Assembly (NCBI RefSeq): GCF_032854445.1
Contig: NW_027017954.1
Coordinates: 1-64,000, forward strand
Length of the DNA: 64,000 bases
Source of the DNA: Liolophura sinensis
Taxonomy: Eukaryota; Mollusca; Polyplacophora; Chitonida; Chitonidae
Reading direction: 5' to 3'
Within the stretch, counting starts at the first letter, position 1; each line of letters starts with the position of its first letter. This document shows, piece by piece, positions 8,101 through 48,488 of this stretch. Position numbers and translations under genes: made by a program. Below the pieces are notes generated by a model. The model searched no databases. It had not been told where the DNA came from and saw only the letters and a list, made by a program, of their open reading frames with translations.

Positions 8101-11100
8101 AAAGTGAAGTAGCATGTTGAAATCCAGTTACTTTGTTACAAGAGAGTAATTTCCTACTAGCACTCCTTGGTTTCCTTCTTTCCAACGTCAATAACTCATT
8201 GTCATTCTGTCCCGTATTGGGTAAAACAGCTACACGTCATTCTATTACTTTCGCAGAATGTGTTGACGGTCGATGGGAAGAACATTGTCAAAGTAACTGT
8301 GGCCATTGTTGGGCAGACAAATGTGATAAAGTTATTGGGGAATGTCCTCTAACTGAAGGAAACCCAAGATGCGATGCTGGCTTCATGCGCAACAAGTGTT
8401 GGACAGGTAAGTGTGTAGAATTCAGTATGACAGAAAGGAAATCCAAGATGTAATGCTGGCTGCGTGTGTAGCATGTACCGGGCACGTAAGTTTGTAGGAC
8501 TTAGTACAGTAGAGACGAAACACAAGAAGCTACATGGATAGGCAGGTATGTAAGATTCAGTATCACAGAGAGTAAAGTCAGTATGTGACACTGGCTACAT
8601 GTGTAACGGACGCAGGACAGTTAAGTGTGTAGGATTCAGTACAATGTAAAGGGATACATTATCCTCAAATACATGACCTCCAAATTAAAGTGAAAGACAG
8701 CACCACACCAATGTTTATGTCCACTGAGAGGCTATCATTGAAAGTGTCTTAAACCGGGATTACATATTTTTTTAGCTCTTTTTTAATCTAGTCAAAGTTA
8801 AATGAAACTTTGTCTTGATATAGCTTAAACACGTCTCTCGAGAACAAGGTGACATCACACTACCTTTAGATCTATAGCATCGCAGGTATTTTCCGTATAA
8901 AAGTCTAAGCAGTAGCCTATGACATATAAAAGTTGTGGACTTGGCGATGAAGGCCCAAGTTATCAATATAGTTTTCTCGGAAATTGGACATACTGGAAGA
9001 ATACTTCTTCCACTGCTTGAACTGTTGATATAGTAGACCTACTATATCATTTACAAGGAACTCCAGAGACCCTGTAAAAATAGCCAGCTGTAGACGCACG
9101 GCCGGGGTATTCCTGGTTCAGGTTGTAGCCTCTGGAGGGATTGTGCTGGTGATTTTGACCCCAGTTAAATGTTTACAAAATTACAATAGGATTGTTGTTA
9201 GAATTATGCTCAAAAACAAACGGAAACATGTTCTGAAACAAAATGGAAATAAATGTAAGCACCACTGACGTCTATCTAGGCATTCCACTCTAGCGGTGGC
9301 TTCAAGGAAGAAAGCCGTGCTGACTCAGTTATCGCAAATATGGCGTTTCAATAGTTTTACTGTATTTTAAAATGCAAAACAGAAAAAAAATATCCCTTGT
9401 ATGCGACAAACTGAGCAAAAAAAAAAATGCATTTGGGGAGAGGAATGAGGTTTTGGCTCGGACGGTATGCTACTGTCGGACATAATTTGTGACACCGCCG
9501 TTTAGTATTACAAGGCTTGAAAATCATCTACTTTACATCGTCTGTGGTGGTCCACAAATGATACAGACCTGTCTCACAACACTTCGTGAAATGGTCCTTC
9601 ACCTAGACGGAACTAAATTGTTGTACACAATCTCAAAATGATGTCTTATGCAGTACTTCTGTGTTATCATATGTCGCTTGATGGAGTGAATGGGTAAACG
9701 CTACGTCACAGCTTAGGCCGCGCAAACTTATAGCAACGTGTTTGACTAGATAAAATTCTCAAGATGGTTGACTCGTCTCACACCAGCAATTTTGTGCAAT
9801 AATGTTATTTTGTTTTACATATTATTCCGTAAAATCTCATTTAAACAATAAAGTATGATCCTTTTTAGACCGCTTGAGAATCCTGCTTTCGATTGAAATA
9901 TGTTTTGCAAGGTGCTGTCCTGTCCTTTAATTGAATGAATGTTGAGATTTAAGCTTTAATATGTCTCAAGGGGGATACTGATCAAGTGGTGTACTCCAAA
10001 TGTTTGCTCTCTTATATATAAAAAAGAACAAATAAAATGTCACTTACTGTTTTTAACAGATCGCCTATTCTTTGACACAGAAAGCTAAAACCACCAAATT
10101 ATTATGATGTTCCTTTTTTTTACTTCTTTTTGCGACAAGCCTGTGACGCAGGTACTTATGGCCCAGACTGTAACGAGACCTGTGGATCGTGTGCAAGTGG
10201 ACCAAGCAGTTGTAACACTACATCCGGCCACTGTCGGGGTAATCCCAGATGCATGCCGGGATATTCTGGTTTGAAATGTAAAACAGGTCAGTCAGGAATA
10301 ATGTTTTACAAGCTTTTCACTTATATGTCACCAGTTTTTTTCATCATTTATATGTATTAATTTTTACAAATTATTTAAGGAAATGGTGAATATGTTTTTG
10401 GGAAATGGACCACCGCTTCATTGTTTACGTGGGGTAATTATAGGTTGTGCGTTATATGGCACGTGGAGTGATGTACAAGTAGTTCCGGTTGAGTCTTTTT
10501 ATACCAAAACCTCCGTGAGAGTGACTGCCCGTATGCATGCAGGGAATATCCATGTATCTCATTACTGTCACGATCATACACACTTTTGCGTACTTGTGTA
10601 TCCAGTTGCTGGTTGTTTAATAGTGTACTAAAAGTTAAACCAGGCATAAATGTTAATACTGATCTTGGTCTAAAACAAAGCTGAATGCACTGTAGCCCTG
10701 ACTAAAGTTAATACCGGGCTTAACTGCTATAATATACTTTTGAACAACTATGCCCAGAACTTTTGCAACTTTTGTCTGGTCCCGATCTTACTAACAGGTG
10801 TCGTAGACTTATGCGTGTTTGTAATATTGCATTGAATCAAAACTAATTAACTACTGTATGTTAGAGCACTTATGTCGTAGTGTACATTACAGCTATTACC
10901 TTTGCTAAAGGATTGATTTCAATGATCAGTGTTTTAACAACGTGCTCAAGAATTTTCTCACGTAAATGGGACATTGAACACGCAACCTCAATGGTCAAGA
11001 GTCAAGTACTCACAGGGAGCCCCAGCTTTTCCCATCTCAGCTAGCGAGGCTCCCCACACTGCCAAAGGAGGTTACACGCTTTTGCCGGCGCCCAAACCGG

Positions 11101-32100: not shown

Positions 32101-35100
32101 GAAGTCTTACATCAAAGGTGACGTCGTTTTCACATAAGTATTTGAATAGCTAGTTGATAATATTGAAATGACGAATTGGCTTAAACAATGAAATCAAGTC
32201 AAATGATAAGCAAACTTCAATGGGAGTCTTCTTTCGTTGTCCTTACTATTTTGGTTGTATTGAGTTAATGAATATTTAAAATTGTATAATGAATTGAAAG
32301 TATACACCAATGATGTCTGCAATTTGCAAAGAGAGTATTTTCCAGTACGTTGTGCCTCAGTCCACGTGTCCTCCGTCATTGGTTTGCGTTTTAGATGAAG
32401 TGCAAACAGTACTGGCCGAGCGAAGGCTGTACGCGGTTTGGTGTCATTGAGGTTACCCTGCTTGACGAGGAGGTATATGCGAATTACGCAATTAGAACAC
32501 TGGAGCTAAGTCACACAAAGGTAGGCCTGATCAATGTCATTGGTACACTCATTGAACTGCACAATTAGAACACTGGAGCGGAGTCACACTAAAAGAGATC
32601 CCATCGACATTATCGGTACACTCATTGAACTACACAATTAGAACACTGGAGCGGAGTCACACTAAGAGAGATCTGATCGACATTATCGGTACACTCATTG
32701 AACTACACAATTAGAACACTGGAGCGGAGTCACACTAAGAGAGATCTGATCGACATTATCAGTACACTCATGGAACTACACAATTAGAACACTGCGGCTG
32801 ACTCACATCGGAACTAGATGTACACTTATAGAACTACGCAATTAGAGCAGCAAGGCTAAGCTGCACTCAGGTAGTTGTGATCGACACAGTAGGTACACTT
32901 ATAGAATGACACACTTAGAACACCGGTAGTGGCTCACACTGAGGTAAGTGGGATCGACAGTATCTGTACACTTGTAGACCTACGCAGTTAGAACACCGAG
33001 GGAAGAAGGTGGAACCCACGTTGACAATAGCTGTACACTAATAGAACTACTCAATTAGAACACTATAGCGGTGTCACACTAAGGTAGGTCTGATCTACAC
33101 AATTAGAGAATTAAATCAGTGGTGCTCAGTCACATCGACACTATTGGAGTACACTGACAGAGCTGCACAATTAGAACACTGGTGCTGAGTCAGACTAGGG
33201 TAGGACTGATCGACACAATCTGAACAATTAGAGAATTAGATCAGTGGTGCTCAGTCACATCGACACTATATGAGTACACTGACAAAACTGCACAATTAGA
33301 ACACTGGTGCTGAGTCACACTAGGGCACATATAGGTCTGATCGACACTATCTGAACAATTAGAGTTAGAACAGTGGTGCGCAGTCACATCGACACTAAAA
33401 CAGTACATTGACAGAGCTGCACAATTAGAACACTGGTGCTGAGTCACACTAGGGTAGGTCTGATCGACACCATCTGAACAATTAGAGAAATAGATCAGTG
33501 GTGCTCAGTCACATCGACACTATAGGAGTACACTGACAGAACTGCACAATTAGAACACTGGTGCTGAGTCACAATAGGGCACATATAGGTCTGATCGACA
33601 CTATCTGAACAATTAGAGTTAGAAAAGTGGTGCGCAGTCACATCAGCACTATAACAGTACACTGAGAGAACTGCACAATTAGAACACTGGTGCTGAGTCA
33701 CACTAAGGTACATATAGGTCTGGTCGACACTATTAGAGAATTAGATCAGTGGTGCTCAGTCACATCGACACTATAGGAGTACACTGACAGAACTGCACAA
33801 TTAGAACACTGGTGCTGAGTCACACTAGGGTAGGTCTGATCGACACCATCTGAACAATTAGAGAATTAGTGGTGCTCAGTTACATCGACTCTATAGGAGT
33901 ACACTGACAGAACTGCACAATTAGAACATTGGTGCTGAGTCACACTAAGGTAGGTCTGATCGACACTATTTGTACTTTTATAGAAATACACAAATGCAAC
34001 ACTGGTAGTTACATGTAGTAATATCGACACAAGGTGTACACTAACTATACACTTAGAGCACTATAGCCGAATAACAAGGTAGGTGACCACACACCACTTT
34101 CCAGTATTCCCGTCATCGTTTGCTCGCATGTATCCCTGTATACCCTTTGTAACTTTGCACATGTAAGAAAGTGTTCAAAATACTTGTACATATAGTTCAT
34201 TATTGCATGATTACCCTCAATTCTCAATTTCTGTCCAAAATGTCTGTAGGTTATTTATTTATTTACTTATTTATTTATTTGATTGATGTTTTAAAGCGTA
34301 CTCAAGAATATTTCACTCATACGACGGCGGTCAGCATTATGGTGGGAGGAAACCCAGGACCATCCGCAGGTTGCTGGGAGACCTGCCCACATATGGCCGG
34401 AGAGGAAGCCAGCATAAGCTGGACTTGGTAGAGGGGATTTAGCACGCTAGCGCGGCGCAATGACCTAAGGCCCTTTCACCAGTACGGTCGCTGTGAGTAC
34501 AAGTCCGTCTCTTTGCTGGCTTCCTCTCCGGCCGCACATGGGAAGGTCTGCAGCAACATGTGAATGGTCGTGGGTATCGTCCTGGCTCTGTCCGGTTTCC
34601 TTCCACCATAATTCTGGCTGCCGTCGTTTAAGTGAAATTTTCTTGAGTACGACGTAAACTACCAATCAAATAAATAAATAGATTCTTCCAACATGCCCAG
34701 AGTTTCCCCAAAATGTAATTGTAACATATGTACAATATATTGGTATTATAACACAATCAAAGACGAGGATACAAGATGAGAATCTGCCTATAAGATGAGC
34801 AAATTCTGTTGGCTGTTGGTTTATGCTTTCCTTACCGCCTTTACTTGTGTCACGCATCTGATCGGAAAATTTCCTCAGGTGAAAAACAAGACGAAGATTC
34901 TGAAACAGTTTCACTTCTTGGCTTGGCCAGATCACGGGGCACCTTCTGATGCCACAATTCTGCTTGACTTTCGAGATAAGGTTCTGGAGTACAACTCGAC
35001 TTTACCTGGACCAATTCTCGTCCATTGCAGGTAGGCGTGGGAACAAACAATCCAGATCAACCTAGAAACAAACATTTTGAAATGGAATGCTAGTTCTGAA

Positions 35101-38100: not shown

Positions 38101-41100
38101 CGTGAATTCCTAGAGTGAAAGATAACACTGACATCCAGATGACAATCAGCAGTACTCAAGGCACAATGACAAATGCTTGGTATGCAACCTTCCTATCAGT
38201 CACAGACTCTACACTTGATTTTTGATCAGCGGAAATGCCCCAAATTTATATACATTTACAGTGAGCATCCAGAAAGATGGCTCGCCTTAAATGTGCTCGA
38301 GAGCAGGGTCGGCGTTCCCCGGTAAAGAGCTCAAACACCTACCTGGTTAGCATCAAGCCCCTGTAACTTCCCATTTCACATCATTCTTTTTCGTCAGTTG
38401 GTGCGATTAAGGGCTGTTTTTCTTTCCTTGTATTCAGAGTGTTACAACATTCTCCCCACGTTGTTCGTGGTTCTGTCTTTGGAATTTATGAAGTCTAAGC
38501 CTCAGGTACGTGAAGGAAAGCTGTAAACTGCGTAATATGTGTTGCAAATAACACGTTGTTGCAGCACAGCATCTTCGTTGGAGTAAACCTGTGATTGTTG
38601 TGTTTCAGTTGATAGCTGCAGGCCATACCTGTCCACGCCAGTGTCCGACTGTAACGACTACATCAATGCTGTGTATCTTCCGGTAAGGATCTCAGACGGG
38701 ACCCTACAGTGTGGTTTGTATGTTCGAAAGTGGAGAGGTAGTATTAACTGCAAGGTACTTTACCTAGATATTAATACGGTACACTAAGTTAAAACTAACA
38801 CCGTTTTATTAATCTTCTCTAGGCGTGGTAAAGAGTGTTGTGTGAGTGCTTGGGGTTTAACGTCGTACTTATCAATTTTTCAGTCATATGAAGACAAAGG
38901 AATCCTTAGAGTGCATGTAATGTGCCCCCTTGGTGCAGGACGGATTTCCACCGCTCTTTTATCTAGTGCTGCTTTACTGAGGCGCCTTACCGAAGGCAAG
39001 TAAACAGCCCCGCCCGAGCCATTATACTGATACGGATCAACAAGTTGTTGCATTGTCCCCTTCATGCTGGACGCCAAGCAAGGAAGTTACAACTTCCTCC
39101 TTTAAGGTCTTAGGTGTGACTCGACCCAGGATTGCCCCTGGAACTACCGCTCCCGTGGTAAAGAATAAGATTACATATAATTATGATTCCTTCTCATGAC
39201 AGAATAGCTGAAATGCCATTATCATTGGTCTTAATTTTTTCAAACTGATTAATTATTTACAACGTATTCATGTATTTGGTCGTTGTATAACGTTATGTTC
39301 ATTAGAGTGTCCGTGGTAAACCACCAACCTTTGACAGGGGCGGATGGACTTGCCAGTTATAGATATGTACAAGATACTGTTGGGACACAAGTGTTTTTCA
39401 TCCACTGGCTGCCTCCGTGGCTCACTTCGTTAGCGCGCTAGCGCAGCGTAATGGCCCATTAGCCTCTCACCAATACGGTCGTTGTGAGTTCTAGTCCAGC
39501 CCATGCTGGCTTCCTCTCCAGCCGTACGTGGGAAGCTTTTCCAGTAACTTGCAATTGTTCGTGGGTTTCCCCCGGGCAGTGCCCGGTTTCCTCCCACCAT
39601 AATGCTGACTGACGTCGTGTAAGTGAAATATTCTTGAATACGGCGTAAAACAACAATCAAATAAATAAATAAATTCATCGACTGTTAGGCCATTTTTTGC
39701 CCAGGCTCCTACAGTTGCGGGGGCATGGAATTGACCCACATCCACATTTTTGTAGAATGTATATCAAGTCCTAGGTAAAGGACTGATTCCATCGGTCACA
39801 TGAACCTAGGATTTATTCCATTGCCTCCACGACACTATACTCTATTTCACAAATACAACCTACCTCAAATATAATATATATAGCTGTCCTAGAATGTCAC
39901 ATATCCTAGTGAATGATAAGAAAACATCTTCAGCGCTCGGACATACCCCGTTTCCATTGATAATTTCATGCTTAAATCTGTTTAATGCAATTTTTAATTA
40001 GCAGCCTCGTTGATGTATGTGAAGTCGGCAACAAACACACCAAGATCTGGCCCAGGGATCATTAAGCGATCCTAGACTTAAGTCAAGATTTCAAATGACT
40101 TTAATATTGCTATTTGTAATGTAAGAAGATCCAAATATTGCTTGACAACGTTAATTCTCGATCAGTTTTTGTGCAATAAATTTCGGCAAATATAATGGAA
40201 AGGAACGCACCAGACTTAATGATTAAATTTTTGACTTGAGTCTAAGATAGGTTCGTGATAACTTCCAGAGGTCCTTACGTAGTGATTGATTTATTTATTT
40301 ATTTGATTGGTGTTTTACGCCGTTCTCAAAAATATTTCACTTATACGACAGCAGCCAGCATTATGGTGGGAGAAAACCGGGCAGGGCCCGAGGGAAACCC
40401 ATGACCATCTGTAAACCGGCCCGGATAACACAGTTGGTAGAGCGGCCGCTTCGGGACCGGTAGATCCAGGATCAATCCTTGATTGAGTCACACCTAAAAC
40501 TTTAAAAGAGGAAGTTGTAACTTCCTCGCTTGGCGTTCAACATGAAGGGGATAGTGCAACGAGTGGTTGACCCGTATCAGTATAATGGCTTGGGCGGGGC
40601 GGCTTACTTGCCTTCGGTAAGTCGTCTCAGTGAAGCAGCACTTCATAAAAATCCGTCCTGCTACAAGGAGGCACATTACACGTACATGCACCCTACGGAT
40701 TCCTTTGTCGTCATATGACTGAAAAATTGTTGAGTACGATGTTAAACCCCAAGCACTCTCTCACCCACTCACCATCTGTTAGTTGCTGGCAGAACTATTG
40801 ATGTGGCTGCCTGGAAACGTGTTCAAGTTCCACTTATTTGAAACTCACTAAATGGCCTCTGCCTTTAGTGTTTTCCCTGGACTCTCTGTTGTAAACAGTA
40901 GGAACCTGAATGGCGTATGACGTGTATGAGTTTACCCTTGGGAAATTACAGATGTTTGTGTATTTTTGGTTCAATGAAAATACCGGTTTTTACTTGTAGG
41001 GATACAAACAGAAGAGGGGTTTTATCCTAACTCAGACTCCTCTACCCAACACGGTCGTGGATTTCTGGCGTCTGGTCTATGATCACAAAGTCAGTACCAT

Positions 41101-44100
41101 CATCATGTTGGACCGCGTGAAAACAGGGATAAGGTAGGTAGTGTGTCAAATTGACCAGTTGTACAGAAAATGGAATACCCCATAACAGGGGTTAAGGTAT
41201 GTAGTTTCTCACATTGACCAGTTGTGCAGAAAATGGAATACCCCATAGCAGGGGATAAAGTAGGTAGTTTATCAAATTGAACTTATGCATATCATGGAAG
41301 TCCCCCACAACAGAGCATTAGGTACGTAGTTTGTCTCATTGACGACTTGTGCACATAACAGTTTAAGATAAGTAGTCTGTCACGTTGAATACTTGTGCAC
41401 ATAACGGAAGACGCCCAAAACAGGGGATAAGTTGGGTAGTCTATCACATTGACTACTTGTGCAGAAAATGAAAGGCTCCCAAAACAGGGAATAAGATAGG
41501 TACCCTGTCAAAGTGTCCACTTGTGCACATAACATGTTAAGATCAATAGTCTGTCACACTGACTACTTGTGCACATAACGGAAGACCCCCAAAACAAGAG
41601 ATAAGGTAGGTAGTCTGTCAAATTGACCACTTGTGAAAATAATGGAAGTCCCCAAAAACAGAGGATTAGATACGTAGTTTACCACATTGACCCCTTGTGC
41701 ACATTGCAGGATAAGATAAGTGGTCTTTTACAGTGACCACTTGTGCACATAACGGAAAACAGGGTTATAAGGTAGGTAATGTGTCACACTGAAAGAGGTG
41801 CAAATACTGGGAAATCCCAATAATGTAACAGGGAATAATGTAAAGAATGTGTCAGATTGGAAGTTGTGTAGATAATGGAAGACGCTCTAATCAAGGGATC
41901 CGCTTCGGTGCGGTAGATCCAGGGTAAATCCTGGATCCACTCACACCACATCAGCATAATGGCTCGGGTTTGGCACCTGACTTGCCATCGGTAAAGCAGG
42001 ACGCGTAGCGGTTATGTCGAAAAGTTTGACAAAACCTTAAGATCGTGAGCGACTGGCGGGGTCTCATCAGATTCAGTTTCGTTGCGCGTGGATCGACCGC
42101 GACTGGAGGCACCTGTGAGCAAATACTTATAGCAGCGTTAATGATGTAGGAGGCCCGTGTACACGGTGCATGGATGTATAATATATTATATACAATATAT
42201 AATATACCTTTCAGTTGTCTTTGCTGTGGAAATTTAAGGTTTCTTGGAAAATTCTCTTGTCCATTTATTCCAACTTTTCTACACTCCCCATGTACATCAT
42301 ATGCTTTGTACCTTGCAAGAGGTGTCGTACAAGCACAGTCTAAGCCTGCAAATATCGATAAGCTTATTTTCCAGCTCATCGGTCCACTTTATAATCGCCA
42401 TTTCCATAGTGCAACTCGTGCATTCCTGGGAGCAACTGTTACCAAGTGGACACAAGCACGTGTAGATCGACGGAACTTGGTACAACCGGATGCTTTGACT
42501 CGCGGAAAAGTCGAACTTGTTCAGTTCTGAGCAACTGCTGAGTCAGCAGTTGTCGGTGATCGCAAACGCGCGTAGATCGACCGTATGCCCCCAGTTGCTG
42601 CCAACTTCTCCTAGTTGCTTCCAGTTGCCAAAAACCCAGTTGCTCCCAGTCGGAAGGTCGACATACGCACGACTGAAGTCGTCTCACTGAAACTGCACCA
42701 GATAAAAGAGCGGTGGAAAACCGTCCTTCAACAAGGAGGCACATTACACGTACATGCACTCTAAGGACTCCTTCGTCATCATATGACTGAAAAAATGACT
42801 GTTAAGTACGACGTTAAACCCCTTTGCACTCACTCACTCACTCACCCACTCACTCTAAACAGGAGGTAAGTAAGAAATGTGTCACATTGAAAGTTGTGCA
42901 CATTATTGAAGGCCCCCAGAACAGAAGATAAGTAGGTAATGTGGCACATTAAAAGTTGTGCATATTATGGAAGGCCCCCAAAACAGAAAATAAGTAGGTA
43001 ATGTGTCACATTGAAAGTTGTGCACATTATGGAAGGCCCCCAAAACAGAAGATAAGTAGGTAATGTGGCACATTAAAAGTTGTGCATATTATGGAAGGCC
43101 CCAAAAACAGAAAATAAGTAGGTAATGTGTCACATTGAAAGTTGTGAACATTATGGAAGGCCCCCAAAACAGAAGATAAGTAGGTAATGTGTCACAATGA
43201 AAGTTGTGCACATTATGGAAGGCCCCCAAAACAGAAGATAAGTAGGTAATATGTCACATTGAAAGTTGTGCAGATAATGGAAAACCCAAAACAGGGAATA
43301 AGGTACGTAATGTGTCACATTGAAAGTTGTGCACATTATGGAAGGCCCCAAAACAGAAGATAAGTAGTCAATGTGTCCCATTGAAATTTGTGCAGATAAT
43401 GGAAAACCCAAAACAGGGAATAAGGTACGTAATGTGTCACAATGAAAGTTGTGCACATCATTGAAAGCCCACAAAACAAGAGACAAGGAGGTAATTTGTC
43501 ACAATGAAAGTTGTCCAGGCGATAGACCCCAACAGAGGGGATGAGGTGCATACATATAGGTAGTCTGTCACATTGACCACAAAGTGTTACATACAATGCT
43601 GAGAATATTCTGAGTGTGTGACTATCGAGAATTACAAGGCAGCGAAAAAGTGCGCGCGGCAAACTGTTATTTGGTTTATTATACATTCAATAACAGTTCA
43701 GTCTGTCGAACACCCGAGGTGTTCACTCAACTGAACCCTAGCATCAGGACATTTCAGATTGCTTATCCTCCAATATTTCCAGTTCCATTATGGCAATAAG
43801 CGCTATTTGGAATTAGTTCGAGATCAGTTGGCTTTCCCAAATTCGGCACACGTAAAACTGTCTCTGTACTTCATATTTTATGCGTGAGTGAGAAAGTACT
43901 CACTTCGGGTACCCAAGTTTCTCCCACCCATAAAACCTTTCCCCTGATACAAGTGTACATTGGTGTAAAACTCCTGGCCCCAGGATCACGAAGCAATCTT
44001 AGACTTAAATTAAAATTTTAACTAATTAAATTTGATATGTTCCTTTCCATTATTTTAGCTGATATTTGTTTTACAATAACTTAGCCATAATTTACGTTGT

Positions 44101-47100: not shown

Positions 47101-48488
47101 GTTTTTGTATTTTATAAGGCAAAGACACCTCAGGATTTTTGCTCATATAGTATTAAAATGTAAATAATGCTTAGTATTTGTTGAAAACGAGGTCTCCATA
47201 TAAAATGTAACAAAGCCAAAATCAGATTTTGGGAAAATAAGCTTATGTAAACAACATGACCGTATGTAGACAGAAGTAGTTTATGCTCTGAGATATAGGC
47301 CGTCTGGTTACCTATGTAATCATAAGGTCTTAAATTGTGTTTATCTCACTTTTGATAGTGGTTTGATTGGGAATGTAAACTTTCTCCTTAAAGGGTGGCC
47401 TGTTTGTGGCATTCGAAGTTTTTAATATTTTAAGTGATTTACAATGATTCATAGATTTTACTATTGCAAAATTATCATTAAGAACAAAGAATGTAACATA
47501 TTTCTAAAAGTCAATTAGCGCAGATACAGAAACAAATTAGACAAAACTTATAAACTATGAAAGGCCACCCTACTTGTATGTGAGCCAACATACCTGGTGA
47601 AAAGATGAGAAATTAGCAGTAAATGAATGTTACCTGTATAATATAAATTATACGATCATAATGTGAGTGCGCATTACTTGCTTTTAAGATTGATGATGAA
47701 GAAATACAGGCTTACGTGTATGATTAAAATAATATATGCCCCGATTGTACCCAGGGATGGCGTGACAAAGAGTGGGTTGTTCTGCGTGGCTTGGACTGTG
47801 CTAGAAAGACTGAAGGTTGACCAGAACGTCAATATCCTACAGACTGTAAAGCAGATGAGGAACAACAGACCGGAGATTATAACAGATGTGGTATGATTAC
47901 TTATAACATTATTAAACAGATAACTATATCAGTGTCATTTGCGTACAAAGCATATGAGTGATAGTCTTCCTTTTAATGATGTGCTAATGCTGGTGCCATT
48001 GCTAAACGTGGACCTCTAAATGGACCACAGTACTTCCAATTATCAAATAAAAATAACACAAATATAATTATGCCCTAACGCGTATGAGTCTATTTCAATG
48101 CTCAGTGACTTCTGGAGAAAGACAAGGACCATACGTCGACTGATTAATGTCTTCATGCTGAATATTGTGTAGATGCATTTAGAATTTGAATGTCAAAAAA
48201 TCAGAAACTCATGTGCTTCAAACATTTTGCTTGTCATTTACCATCTGTTTTCTTTAGACTTTACCCTATTTTAGGGTCATCTTGCTTACCATTTGCCATC
48301 TGTCTTTTTTCCCCTCATCTACCACATTTATGGTCAGATTGCTTGCCATTTATCATATGTCTTTTTCATCCTGTACCCTTTTTTAGGGTCAGCTTAACTT
48401 CATCCACCAGGTCGTCATGGGATATCTGGACAACTTCCAAACGTACGCCAATTTCAGACCAATGACAACAGTTTCGGAGGCGATGTAA
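2088..48488 (+). CDS. Gene 1: receptor tyrosine phosphatase with EGF and F-type lectin ectodomain
   Basis: About 31 exons give roughly 1,310 codons. The order is signal peptide, 8-Cys EGF, F-type lectin (two exons), nine further EGFs, one transmembrane helix, a juxtamembrane region, phosphatase D1 and D2. D1 carries the family landmarks (DYINA, QGP, WPDHGAP, HCSAGIGRTG, QTQEQY) and should hydrolyse phosphotyrosine; D2 lacks them and is probably regulatory. Ectodomain exons are almost all phase 1-1, the usual arrangement for shuffled EGF modules, and phases match at every junction except exon 41000-41133 to 44291-44413. The order resembles MEGF/Draper-type receptors fused to an RPTP body. The ligand is unknown; a lectin domain suggests glycan binding. 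Exons were assigned by reading, without transcript data, so alternative exons and one missing microexon are possible. Confidence 0.85.
3265..3399 (+). CDS. Gene 1 exon 2: 8-cysteine EGF-like domain
   Basis: Acceptor TTTCAG, donor GTAAGT, phases 1-1. Encodes CSGGTYGPDC, then YDCHC, CDPQNGC and GWDGPTC, with eight cysteines in the laminin/MEGF-type spacing. This is the outermost module after signal cleavage. Confidence 0.85.
3782..3991 (+). CDS. Gene 1 exon 3: F-type lectin domain, N-terminal half
   Basis: Begins NVALGKPTFHSS, the conserved opening of fucolectin/tachylectin-4/pentraxin-type domains, followed by AVDGILGHSY, CTHT, SWRVTL and FTIYNRKEGC. Acceptor TTATAG, donor GTAAGT, phases 1-1. 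In fucose-binding members a His and an Arg near the NR.D motif contact the sugar. Both residue types are present, but the spacing differs from the usual motif and the second cysteine of the CC pair is absent, so binding specificity cannot be assumed. Confidence 0.85.
4853..5059 (+). CDS. Gene 1 exon 4: F-type lectin domain, C-terminal half
   Basis: Encodes HRLSGFTLYVGNTS near the start and PLTLCEVLIYG at the end, both hallmarks of the second half of F-type lectin domains, with a central TGLCTGG and RIRSRPG loop that matches the usual second sugar-contacting arginine region. Acceptor TTTACAG, donor GTACGT, phases 1-1. With exon 3 it makes about 139 residues, the normal length for the domain. 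Confidence 0.85.
5060..6011. other. Intron between lectin and EGF exons
   Basis: About 5360-5615 holds a minus-strand SINE of a third family: the reversed tail TTTTTCAGTCATAT, then GCCACCACTGAAGTACCATG, CTGACACCGGACAG and a GCGCCAAGAGAGGCAGCAAC head. Nothing else was recognised. Confidence 0.5.
6012..6107 (+). CDS. Gene 1 exon 5: short 6-cysteine EGF-like module
   Basis: Encodes CSAGWYGEMCGRQC, then TACSKC and RTRCTG: 32 codons and six cysteines, about two thirds of the length of the other EGF exons. Acceptor CTGACAG, donor GTAAAG, phases 1-1. It sits directly after the lectin domain. Confidence 0.75.
6108..7796. other. Intron of gene 1, upstream part
   Basis: No exon recognised. The only element I can name is a 5'-truncated SINE at 7345-7469. 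A long open frame at 6890-7288 has no homology I recognise and no splice context, so it is not called. Confidence 0.5.
7345..7469 (+). mobile_element. SINE family 1, 5'-truncated
   Basis: Carries the core GGATGGTCGTGGGTTTCCCC, GTCGTATAAGTAAAGTATTC and GTGTGAAACACCGATCAG before an ATAAAT tail. Confidence 0.75.
7998..8050 (+). repeat. Promoter-like block, copy inside intron of gene 1
   Basis: TTTGCCAACTATCACACTGTC followed by TTTGGTTTTACTCTCCATTC, nearly the same as 52825-52880 and 1735-1790. It precedes a signal-peptide-like remnant at 8133, so it probably marks the 5' end of a former separate gene. Confidence 0.4.
8133..8200 (+). pseudogene. Remnant of a signal-peptide exon
   Basis: Reads SNFLLALLGFLLSNVNNS in one frame. 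Aligned without gaps to the true signal exon at 2088 through GCA-CTT-GGT-TTC, its ATG position is TTG and there is no donor at the matching place. The only nearby ATG upstream runs into TAA after 11 codons. Identity is only about 60% over 42 bases, so the call rests partly on the promoter-like block just upstream. Confidence 0.4.
8257..8406 (+). CDS. Gene 1 exon 6: 8-cysteine EGF-like domain
   Basis: Encodes CVDGRWEEHC, SNCGHC, CDKVIGEC, RCDAGF and NKCWTG, eight cysteines. Acceptor TTTCGCAG, donor GTAAGT, phases 1-1. Its last 45 bases and donor have been copied several times into the following intron (see 8370-8640), and a decayed duplicate of the whole exon lies at 53101-53249. Confidence 0.8.
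8370..8640 (+). repeat. Exon-end/5' splice site tandem repeat
   Basis: The exon end (AACCCAAGATGCGATGCTGG..GACAG with GTAAGTGTGTAGAATTCAGT) recurs three more times at about 70-110 base spacing: AATCCAAGATGTAATGCTGG..GTAAGTTTGTAGGACTTAGT, then GTATGTAAGATTCAGT, then CAGTATGTGACACTGGCT..TTAAGTGTGTAGGATTCAGT. Later copies have stop codons and damaged donors. Confidence 0.75.
8641..10139. other. Intron of gene 1
   Basis: No exon recognised. 9426-10139 matches 53572-54291 closely, including the GATCGCCTATTCTTTGACACAG run shortly before the EGF acceptor, so it belongs to the segmental duplication. Confidence 0.5.
10140..10286 (+). CDS. Gene 1 exon 7: EGF-like domain, array copy 1
   Basis: Encodes CDAGTYGPDCNETCGSC, SSCNTTSGHC, RCMPGYSGLKC, eight cysteines, 49 codons. 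The acceptor is CGACAAG, weaker than in copies 2-4; donor GTCAGT; phases 1-1. First member of the tandem array and the one closest to the EGF of gene 2 (54292), sharing TYGPDCNETCGSC. Confidence 0.8.
10383..10631 (+). other. 82-codon open frame repeated in array introns, copy 1
   Basis: ATG to TAA, reading LHCLRGVIIGCALYG, WSDVQVVPVESFY, RVTARMHAGN, HYCHDHTHFC. Equivalent frames are open at 11685-11933 and 54532-54786, interrupted by TGA in the unit-3 copy (12941-13187) and largely decayed near 14390-14630. I do not recognise the protein and see no splice sites bounding it. Between copies 1 and 2 replacement changes outnumber silent ones, which argues against strong constraint. Confidence 0.3.
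11136..11305 (+). mobile_element. SINE family 1 in array unit 1
   Basis: TTCCTCTCCGGCCGTACGTGG, GGATGGTCGTGGGTTTTCCC and CGGCGTAAAACACCAGTCAA with an AAATAAATA tail. Present at the same place in units 2 and 3, so it was inserted before the array expanded. Confidence 0.85.
11442..11588 (+). CDS. Gene 1 exon 8: EGF-like domain, array copy 2
   Basis: Encodes CEAGKYGYACNETCGSC, DSCNTKSGHC, RCMPGYSGLKC. Acceptor AATTAAG, donor GTGAGT, phases 1-1, eight cysteines. It differs from copies 3 and 4 at the YGYAC segment (YGHDC there), while most of the remaining sequence is identical. Confidence 0.8.
11685..11933 (+). other. 82-codon open frame, array copy 2
   Basis: Open from ATG to TAA and the same length as the frame at 10383-10631; WSDVQVVPVESFY is unchanged. 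About 13 codons differ by replacement and about 9 silently from copy 1. Function unknown. Confidence 0.3.
12390..12550 (+). mobile_element. SINE family 1 in array unit 2
   Basis: Same position and orientation as in units 1 and 3. The sequence upstream of CCGTACGTGG has been replaced by a deletion junction. Confidence 0.8.
12693..12839 (+). CDS. Gene 1 exon 9: EGF-like domain, array copy 3
   Basis: Encodes CEADKYGHDCNETCGSC, GSCNTKSGHC, RCMPGYSGLKC. Acceptor AATTAAG, donor GTGAGA, phases 1-1, eight cysteines. The downstream 82-codon frame in this unit is broken by TGA. Confidence 0.8.
13826..13990 (+). mobile_element. SINE family 1 in array unit 3
   Basis: CTCTCCGGCCGTACGTGGG through CCAGTCAAATAAATAAAT, nearly identical to the unit 1 copy with the same upstream junction. 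Confidence 0.85.
14132..14278 (+). CDS. Gene 1 exon 10: EGF-like domain, array copy 4
   Basis: Encodes CGAGKYGHDCNETCGSC, DSCNTTSGHC, RCMPGHSGLKC. Acceptor AATTAAG, donor GTGAGA, phases 1-1, eight cysteines. The intron after it holds only a degraded relic of the 82-codon frame and no SINE. Confidence 0.8.
15195..15358 (+). pseudogene. Decayed EGF exon of gene 1
   Basis: Acceptor TCTTCAG and a recognisable EGF: CDNGTYELNCSET, GSCVEGPSAC, CMPGYSKEKC. The cysteine of ETCGSC has become isoleucine, leaving seven. After the last cysteine there is no GT in phase 1; the nearest donor-like site, GTAAAG after TATAAT, would leave phase 0 and not join the next exon. Skipping it lets 14278 splice in phase to 16829. 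A 5'-truncated duplicate lies at 22056. Confidence 0.65.
15463..15686 (-). mobile_element. SINE family 1, duplicated copy A
   Basis: Reads CTTATTTATTTGGTTGG, ACGCTGTACTCAAGAATATT, GGGGGCCAGCATTATGGTGG and ends at GGTATTGGTGG. A run of about 18 guanines (15541-15560) is expanded relative to copy B at 22231-22439. Confidence 0.85.
15976..16045 (+). mobile_element. 5'-truncated SINE family 2 tail, copy A only
   Basis: TCGTCGCCATATGACTGAAA, TTGTTGAGTACGACGTTAAA and a (CACT)n end, flanked by the 11-base duplication CATGCACCTGT at 15965-15975 and 16046-16056. The empty site is preserved in copy B near 22717. Confidence 0.9.
16829..16987 (+). CDS. Gene 1 exon 11: EGF-like domain (duplicate A)
   Basis: Encodes CANGFWGGDCALECGNC, CNKTSGEC, SSCAPGYVY, ITCLTR, eight cysteines, 53 codons. 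Acceptor GGTTTCAG, donor GTGAGT, phases 1-1. The duplicate at 23886 differs by one residue (Ala for Thr after CPV), so the duplication is recent. Confidence 0.8.
17401..18155 (-). repeat. Long terminal repeat of the retrotransposon
   Basis: Read on the minus strand it starts TGTTATGTGCACAACTG and ends GGTCGTAACA, an inverted TGTTA..TAACA pair, 755 bases. A purine-rich GAAGGGTAGG tract sits just inside, as expected for a 3' LTR. No partner LTR exists at the other end of the element. A hydrophobic open frame (about 18158-17592) covers most of it. Confidence 0.75.
18301..18720 (-). pseudogene. Retroelement RNase H, joined to the pre-RT linker
   Basis: Contains GAVLLQEDNLG, FFSRKLNKFQRSYST and VIVNTDHNPLVFLQ, the Ty3/Gypsy RNase H block, ending at a stop after NVIADC. 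Immediately before it the linker VPTRTDVVSHDV runs straight into AIGAVLL: the reverse transcriptase has been deleted in frame at about 18627-18635. Confidence 0.75.
18720..20101 (-). pseudogene. Retroelement integrase with GPY/F-type end
   Basis: Zinc-binding part GHLGVNKT, HFFWPGLKGD, CKSCHTC; core DCVGPLPRTKSGNQY, SDQGSNF (in a shifted frame), SAYHPESQGAIERFHQ; then a VRYFGPYVVDKKLS module. One extra T in the run near 19570 and one missing base near 19965 break the frame. Confidence 0.8.
20243..20836 (-). pseudogene. Retroelement aspartic protease region
   Basis: VLRDTGASQSLLL gives the catalytic DTGA (about 20633-20644) and LLLGNDLAGDKV is the second family landmark. The frame is open across both motifs. 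Confidence 0.8.
20877..22047 (-). pseudogene. Retroelement Gag with zinc knuckle and charged repeat
   Basis: From the 5' side: 10-12 copies of a unit like KEKENERLF (about 22030-21760), then IPPKFDVARNIRLVPQF, a segment with TGKAMDIYTELSTEQA and LPEAYRQKF-like Gag helices, and a CNFCRKPGHVISNC knuckle (C-x2-C-x4-H-x4-C). Frameshifts and stops separate the parts. The true start codon is lost at the 22047 breakpoint. Confidence 0.7.
22231..22439 (-). mobile_element. SINE family 1, duplicated copy B
   Basis: Same insertion as 15463-15686, with the guanine run at its normal length (GGTGGGGGGAAACC). Confidence 0.85.
22829..23192 (-). mobile_element. Full-length SINE family 2, copy B only
   Basis: Minus-strand tRNA-like head (reversed at GCTCTACCAACTGTGCTATC, i.e. 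GATAGCACAGTTGGTAGAGC) and tail GTGAGTGCTTGGGGTTAAAC. Flanked by a TGAAAATAATGA duplication; the empty site survives in copy A at about 16140-16151. Confidence 0.9.
23886..24044 (+). CDS. Gene 1 exon 12: EGF-like domain (duplicate B)
   Basis: Acceptor GGTTTCAG, donor GTGAGT, phases 1-1. Identical to exon 16829-16987 except for one Thr/Ala change. Both can be spliced in sequence without disturbing the frame, adding one EGF to the protein. Confidence 0.8.
24821..25170. mobile_element. Foldback element, copy 1
   Basis: The two ends are inverted copies of about 110 bases: the left arm has GAACTCTGACATC and AAGGCGCCCAAACATTT, the right arm GATGTGACGTCAGAGTTCC and AAACATTTGAATGCCTTTC. A second copy with the same arms is at 50581-50930. 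No coding sequence. Confidence 0.7.
25285..25416 (+). CDS. Gene 1 exon 13: last EGF-like domain before the membrane
   Basis: Encodes CESGSWGDNCSQQCNQGC, TPCNITNGLC, RGCPDGFVDDNC, eight cysteines. Acceptor CCCTTAG, donor GTACAT, phases 1-1. Confidence 0.8.
25438..25540 (-). mobile_element. SINE family 1 fragment
   Basis: TTTATTTATTTAATTGATGT, ACGCCGTACTCACGAATATT and GTATGGTGGGATGAAACC; broken off before the head. Confidence 0.7.
25703..25967 (+). mobile_element. Full-length SINE family 1
   Basis: tRNA-like head GGCTCCGTGGCTCATTTGCT with box A-like TGGCTCA, box B-like GTGAGCTCAAGTCCA, the core CCGTACGTGGGAA, GGATGGTCGTGGGTTTTCC and a CAATCAAATAAATAAATAAA tail. Runs of 12-14 guanines precede it (25622 and 25690). 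Confidence 0.9.
26008..26104 (+). CDS. Gene 1 exon 14: transmembrane segment
   Basis: Encodes SNMMIAKVAGSVTG then VLVVCAVVVAVIIIYR, one hydrophobic helix of about 20 residues ending in a basic stop-transfer residue. Acceptor CTGCAG, donor GTAATT; enters in phase 1 and leaves in phase 2, the same switch used by the transmembrane exon of gene 2. Confidence 0.85.
26105..27256. other. Intron of gene 1
   Basis: A fragment of SINE family 3 lies at about 26205-26300 (GACCCAGTGTCAGTATAATG, GTGGCGGCAGAACTTT). The rest is AT-rich with no recognisable exon. Confidence 0.4.
27257..27808. mobile_element. MITE-like element ending at a splice acceptor
   Basis: Left end AAAGGAGAAGAAAACTTAAA; right end TTTAAATTTTCTTCTCCTTT, its inverted copy. 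About 550 bases, no coding sequence recognised. The same end (AAAGGAGAAGAAAACATAAC) occurs alone at 49271. The right end forms the pyrimidine tract of the acceptor at 27813-27814. Confidence 0.65.
27815..27918 (+). CDS. Gene 1 exon 15: juxtamembrane cytoplasmic segment
   Basis: Encodes RRRHPSTNKSQAHVSLSVRT and GDIQPDVEDQQSNR: the basic run directly follows the membrane helix, consistent with the inside-positive rule. Acceptor TGATCAG, donor GTAAGA, phases 2-1. Its pyrimidine tract comes from the MITE end just upstream. Confidence 0.75.
28267..28421 (+). CDS. Gene 1 exon 16: acidic linker and start of D1
   Basis: Encodes an acidic stretch (YEAEDPEVHVAPEDPEATTY) and then VEEFWDYIQEKM..GFKAEF, the helix that usually opens the first RPTP domain. 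Acceptor CTTTCAG, donor GTAAGC, phases 1-0. Confidence 0.85.
28422..28829. other. Intron with SINE fragment
   Basis: A diverged family 1 SINE fragment spans about 28561-28680 (ATGCGGATGGTCGAGG, GCCCGGTTTCCTCCCAGCAT). Confidence 0.5.
28830..28917 (+). CDS. Gene 1 exon 17: D1, N-terminal segment
   Basis: Encodes KFPAGLHAKAEVANLPYNKA and KSRYKNLVA, corresponding to the KNRY region that lines the phosphotyrosine pocket. Acceptor TTGTTAG, donor GTAAGC, phases 0-1; the split codon gives Tyr of YDHSRV. Confidence 0.85.
29996..30072 (+). CDS. Gene 1 exon 18: D1, DYINA strand
   Basis: Encodes DHSRVVLRLHGPNDKSDYIN and ACYID, matching the family's D..RV.L and DYINA motifs. Acceptor TTTTTTCAG, donor GTAAGA, phases 1-0. 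Confidence 0.85.
30837..30873 (+). CDS. Gene 1 exon 19: D1, 37-base exon
   Basis: Encodes GYNQPKKFIASQ; the split codon completes the QGP motif with the next exon. Acceptor ATTTCAG, donor GTAAAG, phases 0-1. An equally short exon here is common in RPTP genes. Confidence 0.8.
31139..31350 (+). mobile_element. SINE family 3 with guanine-rich insert
   Basis: GGCCCGGTGTCAGCATAATG, then GGCGGCAGTATGGAGTCGCC and a tail with GTCGTCATATAACTGAAAAA and GTTAAACCTCAAGC. The related copy on the minus strand is at 5360-5615. A G-tract cluster (31170-31202) interrupts it. Confidence 0.6.
31658..31755 (+). CDS. Gene 1 exon 20: D1, central helix
   Basis: Encodes PTDLIINDFMRMLWEQNVGK and IVMMTNLIEATK, matching the T..DFW.M..E......V.MT family pattern (Met replaces the common Trp-adjacent residue). 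Acceptor TTCACAG, donor GTATTT, phases 1-0. Confidence 0.85.
31904..32074. mobile_element. Hairpin/MITE-like inverted repeat
   Basis: Arms of about 70 bases: GGTAACATAACTTG..ATATATGGATCACAAC..TTTCGGTATAGG on the left, and its complement on the right ending GTTATGTTATCC. The element and about 30 bases of tail are bracketed by TACATCAAAGGT (about 31895 and 32109). Confidence 0.7.
32395..32520 (+). CDS. Gene 1 exon 21: D1, strand region before the WPD loop
   Basis: Encodes MKCKQYWPSEGCTRFGVIEV and YANYAIRTLELSHTK, matching the C..YWP and Y..R.L family motifs. Acceptor TTTTAG, donor GTAGGC, phases 0-0. The last 35 bases and donor were amplified into the minisatellite that follows. Confidence 0.85.
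32486..33980 (+). repeat. Minisatellite built from an exon end and its 5' splice site
   Basis: The exon ends ACGCAATTAGAACACTGGAG..TCACACAAAG followed by GTAGGCCTGATC. The array repeats ACACAATTAGAACACTGGAG..TCACACTAAG with (G)GTAGGTCTGATCGACAC about 15-20 times. Early units are about 73 bases; later ones form a two-part unit of about 130 bases. Several copies keep an intact AAG|GTAGGT-like donor. Confidence 0.85.
34251..34428 (-). mobile_element. SINE family 1, left half of an inverted pair
   Basis: TTATTTATTTATTTGATTGA, AAGCGTACTCAAGAATATTT, CAGCATTATGGTGGGAGG and GCCGGAGAGGAAGCCAGC; it abuts an oppositely oriented copy. Confidence 0.85.
34429..34680 (+). mobile_element. SINE family 1, right half of an inverted pair
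   Basis: GCTAGCGCGGCGCAATGACC, GTGAGTACAAGTCCG, GGCTTCCTCTCCGGCCGC and an ACCAATCAAATAAATAAATA tail. Together with 34251-34428 it can fold into a long hairpin. Confidence 0.85.
34879..35030 (+). CDS. Gene 1 exon 22: D1, WPD loop to catalytic cysteine
   Basis: Encodes QFHFLAWPDHGAPSDATILL and GPILVHC, supplying the general acid Asp of the WPD loop and the His-Cys of the signature. Acceptor CCTCAG, donor GTAGGC, phases 0-2; the signature continues in the next exon. Confidence 0.9.
35031..36246. other. Intron splitting the D1 active site
   Basis: Contains a near full-length family 1 SINE (35540-35780) preceded by a GGGGTGGGGGGTGGGGG tract. No exon seen. Confidence 0.5.
35540..35780 (+). mobile_element. 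SINE family 1, near full length
   Basis: Head GGCTCCGTGGCTCAGTTGGT, box B-like GTGAGTTCAAGTCCAGC, core GGATGGTCGTGGGTTTCC (with a short deletion) and tail CACCAATCAAATAAAAAAAA. Confidence 0.9.
36247..36382 (+). CDS. Gene 1 exon 23: D1, phosphate-binding loop
   Basis: Encodes SAGIGRTGTFIALDYLINQA, completing HCSAGIGRTG with the invariant arginine, then VMILRQQRVNMVQTQ with the Q-loop glutamine. Acceptor GGAACAG, donor GTACAA, phases 2-0. Every residue needed for catalysis is present. Confidence 0.9.
36999..37148 (+). CDS. Gene 1 exon 24: D1 end and D1-D2 linker
   Basis: Encodes EQYEFLHAALGEALEFSDSS, closing D1 with the usual QY.F...A helix, then the linker TVDPETGQSKMVAQFE. Acceptor TTACCAG, donor GTCTGT, phases 0-0. 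Confidence 0.85.
37225..37380 (+). mobile_element. Two SINE family 1 3'-end fragments
   Basis: CTCCCACCATAATGCTGGCC to CAATCAAATAAATACATAAA, then a second more diverged AAGTGAAATATTCGTGAATA fragment. Confidence 0.65.
37539..37638 (+). CDS. Gene 1 exon 25: start of D2
   Basis: Encodes VLRELSQPANKMQVE and ISKNRYSKVLA, the KNRY motif that opens phosphatase domains. Acceptor TTTTAG, donor GTAAGT, phases 0-1. Confidence 0.85.
37639..38608. other. Intron of gene 1
   Basis: AT-rich, no exon, SINE or repeat that I can name. Confidence 0.4.
38609..38682 (+). CDS. Gene 1 exon 26: D2, DYINA strand
   Basis: Encodes DSCRPYLSTPVSDCNDYINA and VYLP. Acceptor TGTTTCAG, donor GTAAGG, phases 1-0. Confidence 0.8.
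38841..39153 (-). mobile_element. SINE family 2, minus strand
   Basis: GTGAGTGCTTGGGGTTTAAC, CAATTTTTCAGTCATATGAA, GCGCCTTACCGAAGGCAAGT and GGAAGTTACAACTTCCTCC; the tRNA-like head is truncated. Confidence 0.85.
39409..39674 (+). mobile_element. Full-length SINE family 1
   Basis: Head TGCCTCCGTGGCTCACTTCG, box B-like GTGAGTTCTAGTCCAGC, core GTGGGTTTCCCCCGGGC and tail ACAATCAAATAAATAAATAA. Confidence 0.9.
40057..40259. mobile_element. MITE with 35-base inverted ends, copy 1
   Basis: GATCATTAAGCGATCCTAGA at the left and TCTAAGATAGGTTCGTGAT at the right are imperfect inverted copies; both extend through a GACTTAAGTCAA-like stretch. Copy 2 is at 43984-44196. Confidence 0.7.
40288..40415 (-). mobile_element. 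SINE family 1 interrupted by a family 2 SINE
   Basis: TTTATTTATTTATTTGATTG to AACCCATGACCATCTGT, continuing after the insertion at about 40781 as TAGTTGCTGGCAGAAC. Confidence 0.85.
40416..40771 (+). mobile_element. Full-length SINE family 2 nested in a SINE
   Basis: Head CCGGCCCGGATAACACAGTT with box A-like and GGTAGATCCAGGATCAATCC box B-like parts; tail GTTAAACCCCAAGCACTC. Flanked by ACCATCTGT direct repeats, so it inserted into the family 1 copy. Confidence 0.9.
41000..41133 (+). CDS. Gene 1 exon 27: D2, central segment
   Basis: Encodes GYKQKRGFILTQTPLPNTVV, DFWRLVYDHKVSTIIMLDRV and KTGI, strongly D2-like (TQ.PLPNTV..FWRL). Acceptor TTGTAG. The best donor, AAG|GTAGGT, leaves two bases over (phase 2), but the next recognisable exon begins in phase 0. 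A weaker in-phase donor, CGC|GTGAAA at 41117, would drop VKTGI. Confidence 0.75.
41105..41890 (+). repeat. Second exon-end/5' splice site minisatellite, left part
   Basis: The exon end AAAACAGGGATAAG|GTAGGTAGTGTGTC is repeated about 12 times with a period near 62 bases, e.g. AACAGGGGTTAAGGTATGTA, CAGGGGATAAAGTAGGTAGT, AACAAGAGATAAGGTAGGTA. The spacer reads TTGACCACTTGTGCACATAA..GGAAG.CCCC. Confidence 0.85.
41896..42850 (+). mobile_element. SINE family 2 split by an unknown insertion, nested in the minisatellite
   Basis: Left piece 41899-41990 (GCGGTAGATCCAGGGTAAAT, CTTGCCATCGGTAAAG), right piece about 42668-42850 (GTCGTCTCACTGAAACTGCA, GGCACATTACACGTACATGC, GTTAAACCCC). Between them lie about 670 bases of unrecognised sequence with CGCGTGGATCGACC and CGCGTAGATCGACC near its ends and an AT palindrome (42178-42207). 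Confidence 0.75.
42858..43595 (+). repeat. Exon-end minisatellite, right part
   Basis: About 12 units of 62 bases, more uniform than the left part: AAAACAGAAGATAAGTAGGT, TGTGTCACATTGAAAGTTGT, GCACATTATGGAAGGCCCCC. Most have lost the first G of the GT donor (GATAAGTAGG). Confidence 0.85.
43984..44196. mobile_element. MITE with inverted ends, copy 2
   Basis: GATCACGAAGCAATCTTAGA..and..TCTAGGATCGCTTAATGAT are inverted copies of each other, the same family as 40057-40259. It ends 95 bases before the acceptor of the next exon. Confidence 0.7.
44291..44413 (+). CDS. Gene 1 exon 28: D2, strand region
   Basis: Encodes NVGVYWTDKKETFNPFEVEV and EFSTWTYELSHKDK, aligned with the YWP....G...V and R.L.L region of phosphatases but with the usual Pro and the conserved Arg replaced. 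Acceptor GCACAG, donor GTAAAG, phases 0-0. If entered in phase 2 it hits TGA after about 20 codons, so its incoming phase must be 0. Confidence 0.75.
44984..45241 (+). mobile_element. Full-length SINE family 1, diverged
   Basis: Head GGGGCCTCCGTGGCCGTGGT, box B-like GTGAGTTCAAGTCCAGA, and tail GCCAAGCAAATAAATAAATC. Confidence 0.85.
45242..46818. other. Intron of gene 1
   Basis: Contains a minus-strand SINE fragment (about 46130-46241: TGTTTATTGATATGATTGGT, CGTACTCAAGAATATTTCAC). No exon recognised. Confidence 0.45.
46819..46967 (+). CDS. Gene 1 exon 29: D2, degenerate WPD region
   Basis: Encodes KAPQPIKQFRCPFFTSEPTL and GPVLVHC. Where an active domain has WPD.GVP this reads CPFFTSEPT: the general acid is gone. 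Acceptor TTTCCAG, donor GTTAGC, phases 0-2. Confidence 0.85.
46968..47754. other. Intron splitting the D2 signature
   Basis: No element or exon recognised; intron position matches that of D1 exactly (after HC in phase 2). Confidence 0.5.
47755..47890 (+). CDS. Gene 1 exon 30: D2, degenerate signature loop
   Basis: Encodes RDGVTKSGLFCVAWTVLERL and VKQMRNNRPEIITDV. The signature reads HCRDGVTKSG instead of HCSAGIGRTG: the cysteine stays, the catalytic arginine is lysine and the glycine before it is threonine. Acceptor TACCCAG, donor GTATGA, phases 2-0. Confidence 0.85.
48387..48488 (+). CDS. Gene 1 exon 31: C-terminus
   Basis: Encodes GQLNFIHQVVMGYLDNFQTY and ANFRPMTTVSEAM, then TAA at 48486-48488. 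The helix matches the closing Q..F...AV..Y of phosphatase domains. Acceptor TTTTTTAG, phase 0. Confidence 0.85.
   Translation, partial: GQLNFIHQVVMGYLDNFQTYANFRPMTTVSEAM

Follow-up and report, generated by a model that had tools for sequence, protein, structure and literature searches.

Mirage-type minisatellite arrays over predicted exon-intron borders in the chiton Liolophura sinensis

Host gene and genomic setting

The stretch of DNA analysed here, referred to below as the window, covers the initial 64 kb of contig C15 in a chiton assembly of 609.46 Mb and 632 contigs; the chiton genome was published as L. japonica (PMC11068029), and the species has since been corrected to Liolophura sinensis (PMC12441733). 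The window gene, a receptor-type tyrosine phosphatase, combines EGF-like exons with two tyrosine phosphatase domains, D1 and D2. A paralog at C7:24.948-24.972 Mb shares the succession and strand of the EGF-like, D1 and D2 exons, so that all of them would belong to one gene. The EGF exon finds matches at 20 places on C15, two of them in the window (8256 and 53100), with extra unit copies beside 12 of the 20, and D1 and D2 match 8 places each; in the C15 cluster, EGF exons outnumber phosphatase domains. The window also holds, on the minus strand at 17592-22299, open frames that by eye look retroelement-like (integrase- and reverse-transcriptase-like), inside which a coding repeat of 27 bp (KEKENERLF) occupies 21755-22026. 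More minisatellites are seen toward the end of the gene, at 48227-48395, 48844-49065 and 50008-50232.

Three exon-derived arrays in the window gene

The first exon of D2, at 41000..41133 on the plus strand, reads GYKQKRGFILTQTPLPNTVVDFWRLVYDHKVSTIIMLDRVKTGI in translation and is matched by PF00102 (C15:40991-41125). Its donor lies after 41133, and the final 14 exon bases are part of a repeat unit of ~62 bp, in which they are followed by GTAGGTAG. TRF reports arrays of period ~62-64 at 41122-41757 and 42857-43514, and nhmmer with the first unit as query yields 25 matches in total, some of them weak. More precisely, TRF and nhmmer together delimit a first block of 13 units of ~62 bp at 41121..41885 (plus strand), whose first unit spans the donor, and, with the donor scores in addition, a second block of 12 units at 42858..43597 (plus strand), in many of which one G is missing at the donor position (ATAAGTAGG). 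On reading the sequence, the two blocks are separated by an unrelated insert of ~970 bp (41886..42857), which has stretches in common with ~40540-40720, just upstream of the D2 exon, and is therefore probably a dispersed repeat. The original prediction of about 24 units seeded by the end of the D2 exon is thus borne out as to seeding and, with 25 matches of ~62 bp, as to number; the single array that it had drawn over 41105-43595 has to be replaced by two blocks.

Upstream, the D1 phosphatase exon (MKCKQYWP...RTLELSHTK in translation; 32395..32520, plus strand), which shares 77% DNA identity with its C7 paralog exon, runs into an array at 32476..34007 (plus strand) with 23 nhmmer matches, partial units included. 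The D1 unit measures 73 bp, longer composite units being present as well, and a full unit holds ~40-45 exon bases. Finally, an EGF-like exon at 8256..8406 (plus strand, 5' end approximate) has its last ~47 bases repeated in an array at 8360..8652 (plus strand), made of the exon end and ~3 decayed copies of ~80 bp that include these ~47 exon bases; paralogs L178-L180 carry more copies than the window does. The three arrays are mutually unrelated in sequence, all derive from an exon border and all carry exon bases in their units, as had been proposed for three introns of this gene.

Age and turnover of the arrays among paralogs

The three exons are conserved coding sequence. Paralog exons without arrays are found by nhmmer for D1 (C7:24.96M and C23), for EGF (C7:14.93M and C7:24.94M) and for D2 (C7:25.016M); across the five loci, TRF lists nothing but one AT and one AAAT run. 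The window and C7 copies of the D1 exon differ at 7 sites; among the 132 cells that the array units provide for these sites, 70 show the paralog letter, 53 the window-exon letter and 9 another letter. In the same line, the units of the D2 paralog L004, compared with the array-free L023, carry the outgroup letter in 20 of 36 cells, the present exon letter in 6 and another in 10, the cells within one array being, in both counts, not independent of each other. The units tend to retain older exon letters, which, together with the paralog exons that lack arrays, indicates that the exon predates the array.

The paralog L004 (C7:24.97M) possesses a D2 array of its own, with a period of 66 and ~33 exon bases per unit against 14 in the window, and it seems to have arisen independently at the homologous D2 donor. 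Besides, in the phosphatase paralogs L022 and L032, arrays of 21 bp and 20 bp begin 30 and 15 bp past the homologous donor, respectively.

Copy number is unstable. Counting nhmmer matches, weak ones included, and excluding the copy at C15:467k, the D2 array has 25 in the window, at least 26 at C15:157k, 23 at 224k, 17 at 302k, at least 30 at 563k, 25 at 629k, 15 at 725k and 10 at C7:14.86M, the values for 157k and 563k being lower bounds because the analysed stretches end in or close to the array. The number thus ranges from 10 to at least 30 among eight paralogs, and still from 23 to at least 30 among five near-identical ones, which are paralogs and not alleles: the copies at 157k, 224k, 563k and 629k share 98-99% identity with the window over the compared 161 bases (98-100% among the five copies, window included). 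The D1 array gives 23, 27 and 18 matches, weak ones included, in three copies examined of the eight on C15, and the EGF array goes from ~3 copies in the window up to ~8 in C15:666k (weak matches included). Such length differences between paralogs would be explained by slippage or unequal exchange.

Frequency of border-spanning arrays in sampled exons

The frequency of this architecture was estimated from exons, with their flanks, drawn from the lists of matches to PF00102, PF00063, PF07714, PF00664 and PF00225 (PTP 54, myosin 38, kinesin 40, TK 22, ABC 20, that is 174 in all), PF00122 with its four matches being left out. Removal of L001-L003, three copies of the window gene, brought the sample to 171, and L004 was retained as a PF00102 match. 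The exons, mostly well spaced and with short open frames, were selected with their flanks unseen, except L001-L004, which were picked as paralogs of the window gene; this is a convenience sample rather than a random one. The borders are predicted by script and not taken from transcripts, four of them (L057, L060, L107, L172) being corrected by hand, which in a profile of 40-mers shifted the junction counts from 8 to 9/171 for donors and from 3 to 2/169 for acceptors.

When an 80-mer centred on the junction was searched for a copy covering that junction within 400 bp of intron, 9 of 171 donors were positive (limits 2.4-9.8%), with all five families represented: L044, L060, L075, L102, L107, L134, L145, L157 and L172, from myosin, kinase, ABC, phosphatase and kinesin exons. 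The same architecture therefore recurs far outside the window gene. At acceptors, 3 of 169 were positive (limits 0.4-5.1%), namely L033, L114 and L137, from phosphatase, kinase and kinesin exons, and the difference between donors and acceptors is not significant (p = 0.14). Between unrelated loci, matches across the junction numbered 0 of 1332, so that chance resemblance is excluded as the source of these copies. By TRF, arrays that overlap the exon by 10 bp or more occur at 8/171 donors and 2/171 acceptors (3 before border correction, the L057 array stopping ~10 bp short of the true acceptor).

The arrays themselves are diverse. The myosin exon L060 has a unit of 124 bp with ~115 exon bases, repeated ~6 times at 98%. 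The L004 array holds the exon tail in its units, yet failed the strict junction test and stands outside the nine. At L013, the acceptor and nearly 30 bases of the exon head occur in 8 tandem copies, of which the last is the true exon start; this locus lies outside the sampled junctions and was left out of the counts. In the tyrosine kinase exon L114, about three strongly decayed copies of acceptor and exon head lie upstream, apparently an old acceptor mirage, the term used for such border-spanning repeats in amphioxus (see below). Moreover, the flanks bear a heavy array load with a hint of bias toward the 5' part of the intron: in the 134 exons whose flanks are complete, 16.8% of the 590-bp donor flanks lies within arrays, versus 9.1% of the 585-bp acceptor flanks.

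Is the splice border a preferred site?

The recurrence of one architecture in three introns of a gene had been read as the sign of a dedicated mechanism rather than of chance. In its general form, such a splice-directed birth would make donors hot spots, with local re-replication triggered at borders by R-loops, U1 binding or paused transcription. Besides the three arrays within one gene, the differently bounded array of L004 at the homologous D2 donor could hint at a local hot spot. A genome-wide comparison of repeats at donors, acceptors and intron positions had been proposed as the way to decide, and it was run on the 171-exon sample.

The donor does not stand out as a peak; the profile climbs into the intron instead. 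With 40-mers, 3 of 171 donor loci are positive at -40, 9 at 0, 17 at +60, 23 at +120 and 29 at +220; in paired donor loci, none is positive solely at the junction and 14 are positive solely at +120. The 80-mer test placed inside the intron gives 19/171 at +60 and 21/171 at +120, compared to 9/171 at the junction, and an earlier run on 131 exons gave 6/131 at the donor junction and 15-18/131 from +60 to +150. The acceptor side behaves likewise, with 2/169 at 0, 9/141 at 120 bp and 14/140 at 220 bp in the 40-mer profile, 7/149 at 60 bp and 9/141 at 120 bp in the 80-mer test, and 3/117 at the junction as against 4-7/100-101 inside in the earlier run. Acceptor-spanning arrays also exist (L033, L137, L114, L013), which speaks against a process confined to donors.

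The edges of TRF arrays are somewhat more favourable to a border effect. At donors, 16 edges fall within 60 bp and 19 at 60-300 bp, a density ratio of 1.68 (p = 0.15); at acceptors, the numbers are 8 and 11 (p = 0.47), and both borders together give 24 versus 30, a ratio of 1.60 (p = 0.085). Before border correction, the ratios were 1.58 for donors (p = 0.20) and 1.53 for both borders (p = 0.14). A modest excess of edges at borders, mild and not significant, may thus exist, and is the strongest result against reading the arrays as ordinary, tolerated duplications; nevertheless, a barrier set by the exon to array extension would alone heap edges near borders. In a larger sample, the edge density or the donor-side bias could become a real excess.

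R-loops formed on unspliced RNA may still contribute, but strand composition lends them little weight: the mean GC skew of the sense strand is slightly higher in arrays (0.114 versus 0.041), but its sign is positive in 49 of 71 arrays and in 59 of 88 flanks of loci without a TRF row. As to the three arrays within the window gene, at a rate of 5.3% at least three would be met with p = 0.085 for 20 donors and 0.14 for 25, these being assumed donor numbers for a gene singled out for its arrays, so that the coincidence is not rare. Taken together, neither the 40-mer profile, nor the 80-mer junction test, nor the TRF edges reveal a significant excess of arrays at the donors of the 171 exons, and intron positions at 60-120 bp score higher. 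The donor hot spot was rejected as a candidate on these three measures, the mechanism aimed at splice borders is not upheld, and a splice-directed birth appears improbable. Exon borders would rather be one among several start sites of minisatellites, and are not clearly preferred.

A weaker form of donor bias would require no directed birth. Arrays would arise everywhere, and those at acceptors would be purged since splicing favours the AG that comes first behind the branch point, whereas those spanning donors would survive. The donor and acceptor counts (9/171 and 3/169) and the flank coverage given above lean in this direction; the difference is, however, not significant either at the junction or at 120 bp (23/171 versus 9/141, p = 0.06). 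Such a purge, which we hold to be very improbable as an explanation in its own right, would moreover refine the reading as tolerated duplications rather than oppose it.

Proposed mechanism and fate of the copied donors

The observations are probably best accounted for by ordinary tandem duplication in a minisatellite-rich genome, giving mirage-type arrays that are tolerated through splicing at the first donor. In a first step, one tandem duplication would copy a short stretch running from the end of the exon over the splice donor into the beginning of the intron; the later multiplication and homogenisation of the unit would be due to slippage or unequal exchange. Splicing at the original, first donor would yield a normal mRNA, the copies staying in the intron, and the arrays, being near-neutral, would be tolerated and persist because the message is still normal. 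Templating on spliced RNA, which had been suggested as a possible route, does not agree with the units themselves: in them the exon tail runs straight into intron bases, which spliced RNA lacks, and such RNA is therefore an unlikely template.

The copied donors might also be maintained by selection, as alternative donors or as decoy U1 sites in the manner of human IFI6. In this context, GT is kept in 15 of 18 mapped D2 copies, 5 of which score 5 or more, and the authentic nine bases are retained in 7/7 copies at L044. Young arrays may nonetheless retain donors merely through their youth, and decay is visible elsewhere, as five copies of D2 block 2 score just 0.5 and GT is lost in the first three D1 copies. 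Furthermore, when reading continues beyond the first donor, seven of the eight cases examined (D2, D1, L044, L075, L102, L145 and L157, the exception being L134) show a stop codon ahead of the place where the next copy has its donor, so that use of the next-copy donor would add a stop codon in these seven. Functional tandem donors accordingly seem an improbable explanation.

Beyond the tolerated duplications preferred here, a bolder picture can be drawn, in which the 5' ends of chiton introns would be a true birth zone of minisatellites, driven by a process linked to transcription or splicing: introns would grow by the copying of their borders, and the spliceosome would, as a matter of routine, have to settle on the first among many nearly identical donors. 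We consider this unlikely.

Comparison with known systems

Several known processes resemble the chiton arrays in part. The gain of introns when AGGT is tandemly duplicated in the genome (review: PMC3443670) likewise involves exon sequence and splice signals being duplicated in tandem; this candidate was rejected, since array-free paralogs (L023 for D2; L184 and L185 for D1) have a donor at the corresponding position. An introner-like element was also rejected, the D2, D1 and EGF queries matching paralog clusters on C15, C7 and C23 alone in searches that pass over very common words and whose match lists are lower bounds. The minisatellite of human IFI6 (6-16) contains multiple splice donors, of which those of downstream units are reported as used (Turri 1995, via PMC4526556). 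There too, tandem units supply extra splice donors at an exon end, but use of the chiton copy donors would mostly introduce a stop.

The closest parallel is provided by the amphioxus mirages, tandem repeats over exon-intron borders described in the Adh3, globin, troponin C and PGBD5 genes (PMC3087553, PMC3902484). According to these accounts, mirages occur at both 5' and 3' borders, contain AG/GT signals in many units and vary in length, and the Adh3 data together with globin RT-PCR suggest that they leave splicing undisturbed (PMC3087553, PMC3902484). In the chiton, minisatellite-like units similarly span the predicted exon-intron border (D2, D1, EGF and the nine sampled donors), arrays are present at 5' borders and at 3' borders (the four acceptors named above; in the window gene, donors were examined), splice signals persist in many but not all units (GT in 7/11 D1 copies as well as in the D2 copies already mentioned), and copy number is unstable among paralogs. 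In every mirage feature examined in DNA, the chiton arrays thus match the mirage type. They differ in their mollusc host, in units of ~35-125 bp, in a frequency estimated from a sample and in a change polarised by array-free paralogs.

As far as the open-licence PMC literature is concerned, covered mostly by title and abstract, no report of border-spanning arrays in a mollusc was recognised: the tandem-repeat and splice-site passages of PMC3862624 (cone snail) and PMC7084494 (door snail) contain no such arrays, and the minisatellite arrays that PMC12783039 reports from a metallothionein intron of an earthworm are not said, in its passages, to have exon bases in their units. Within the literature searched, the occurrence in a mollusc and the frequency estimate are therefore new. 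The sample counts offer a quantitative baseline for judging any splice-directed repeat mechanism. If ~5% of donors carry arrays genome-wide, the chiton would present thousands of natural experiments on the choice of the spliceosome among near-identical donors, and on intron lengthening as well. The chiton arrays also show that mirages extend beyond amphioxus.
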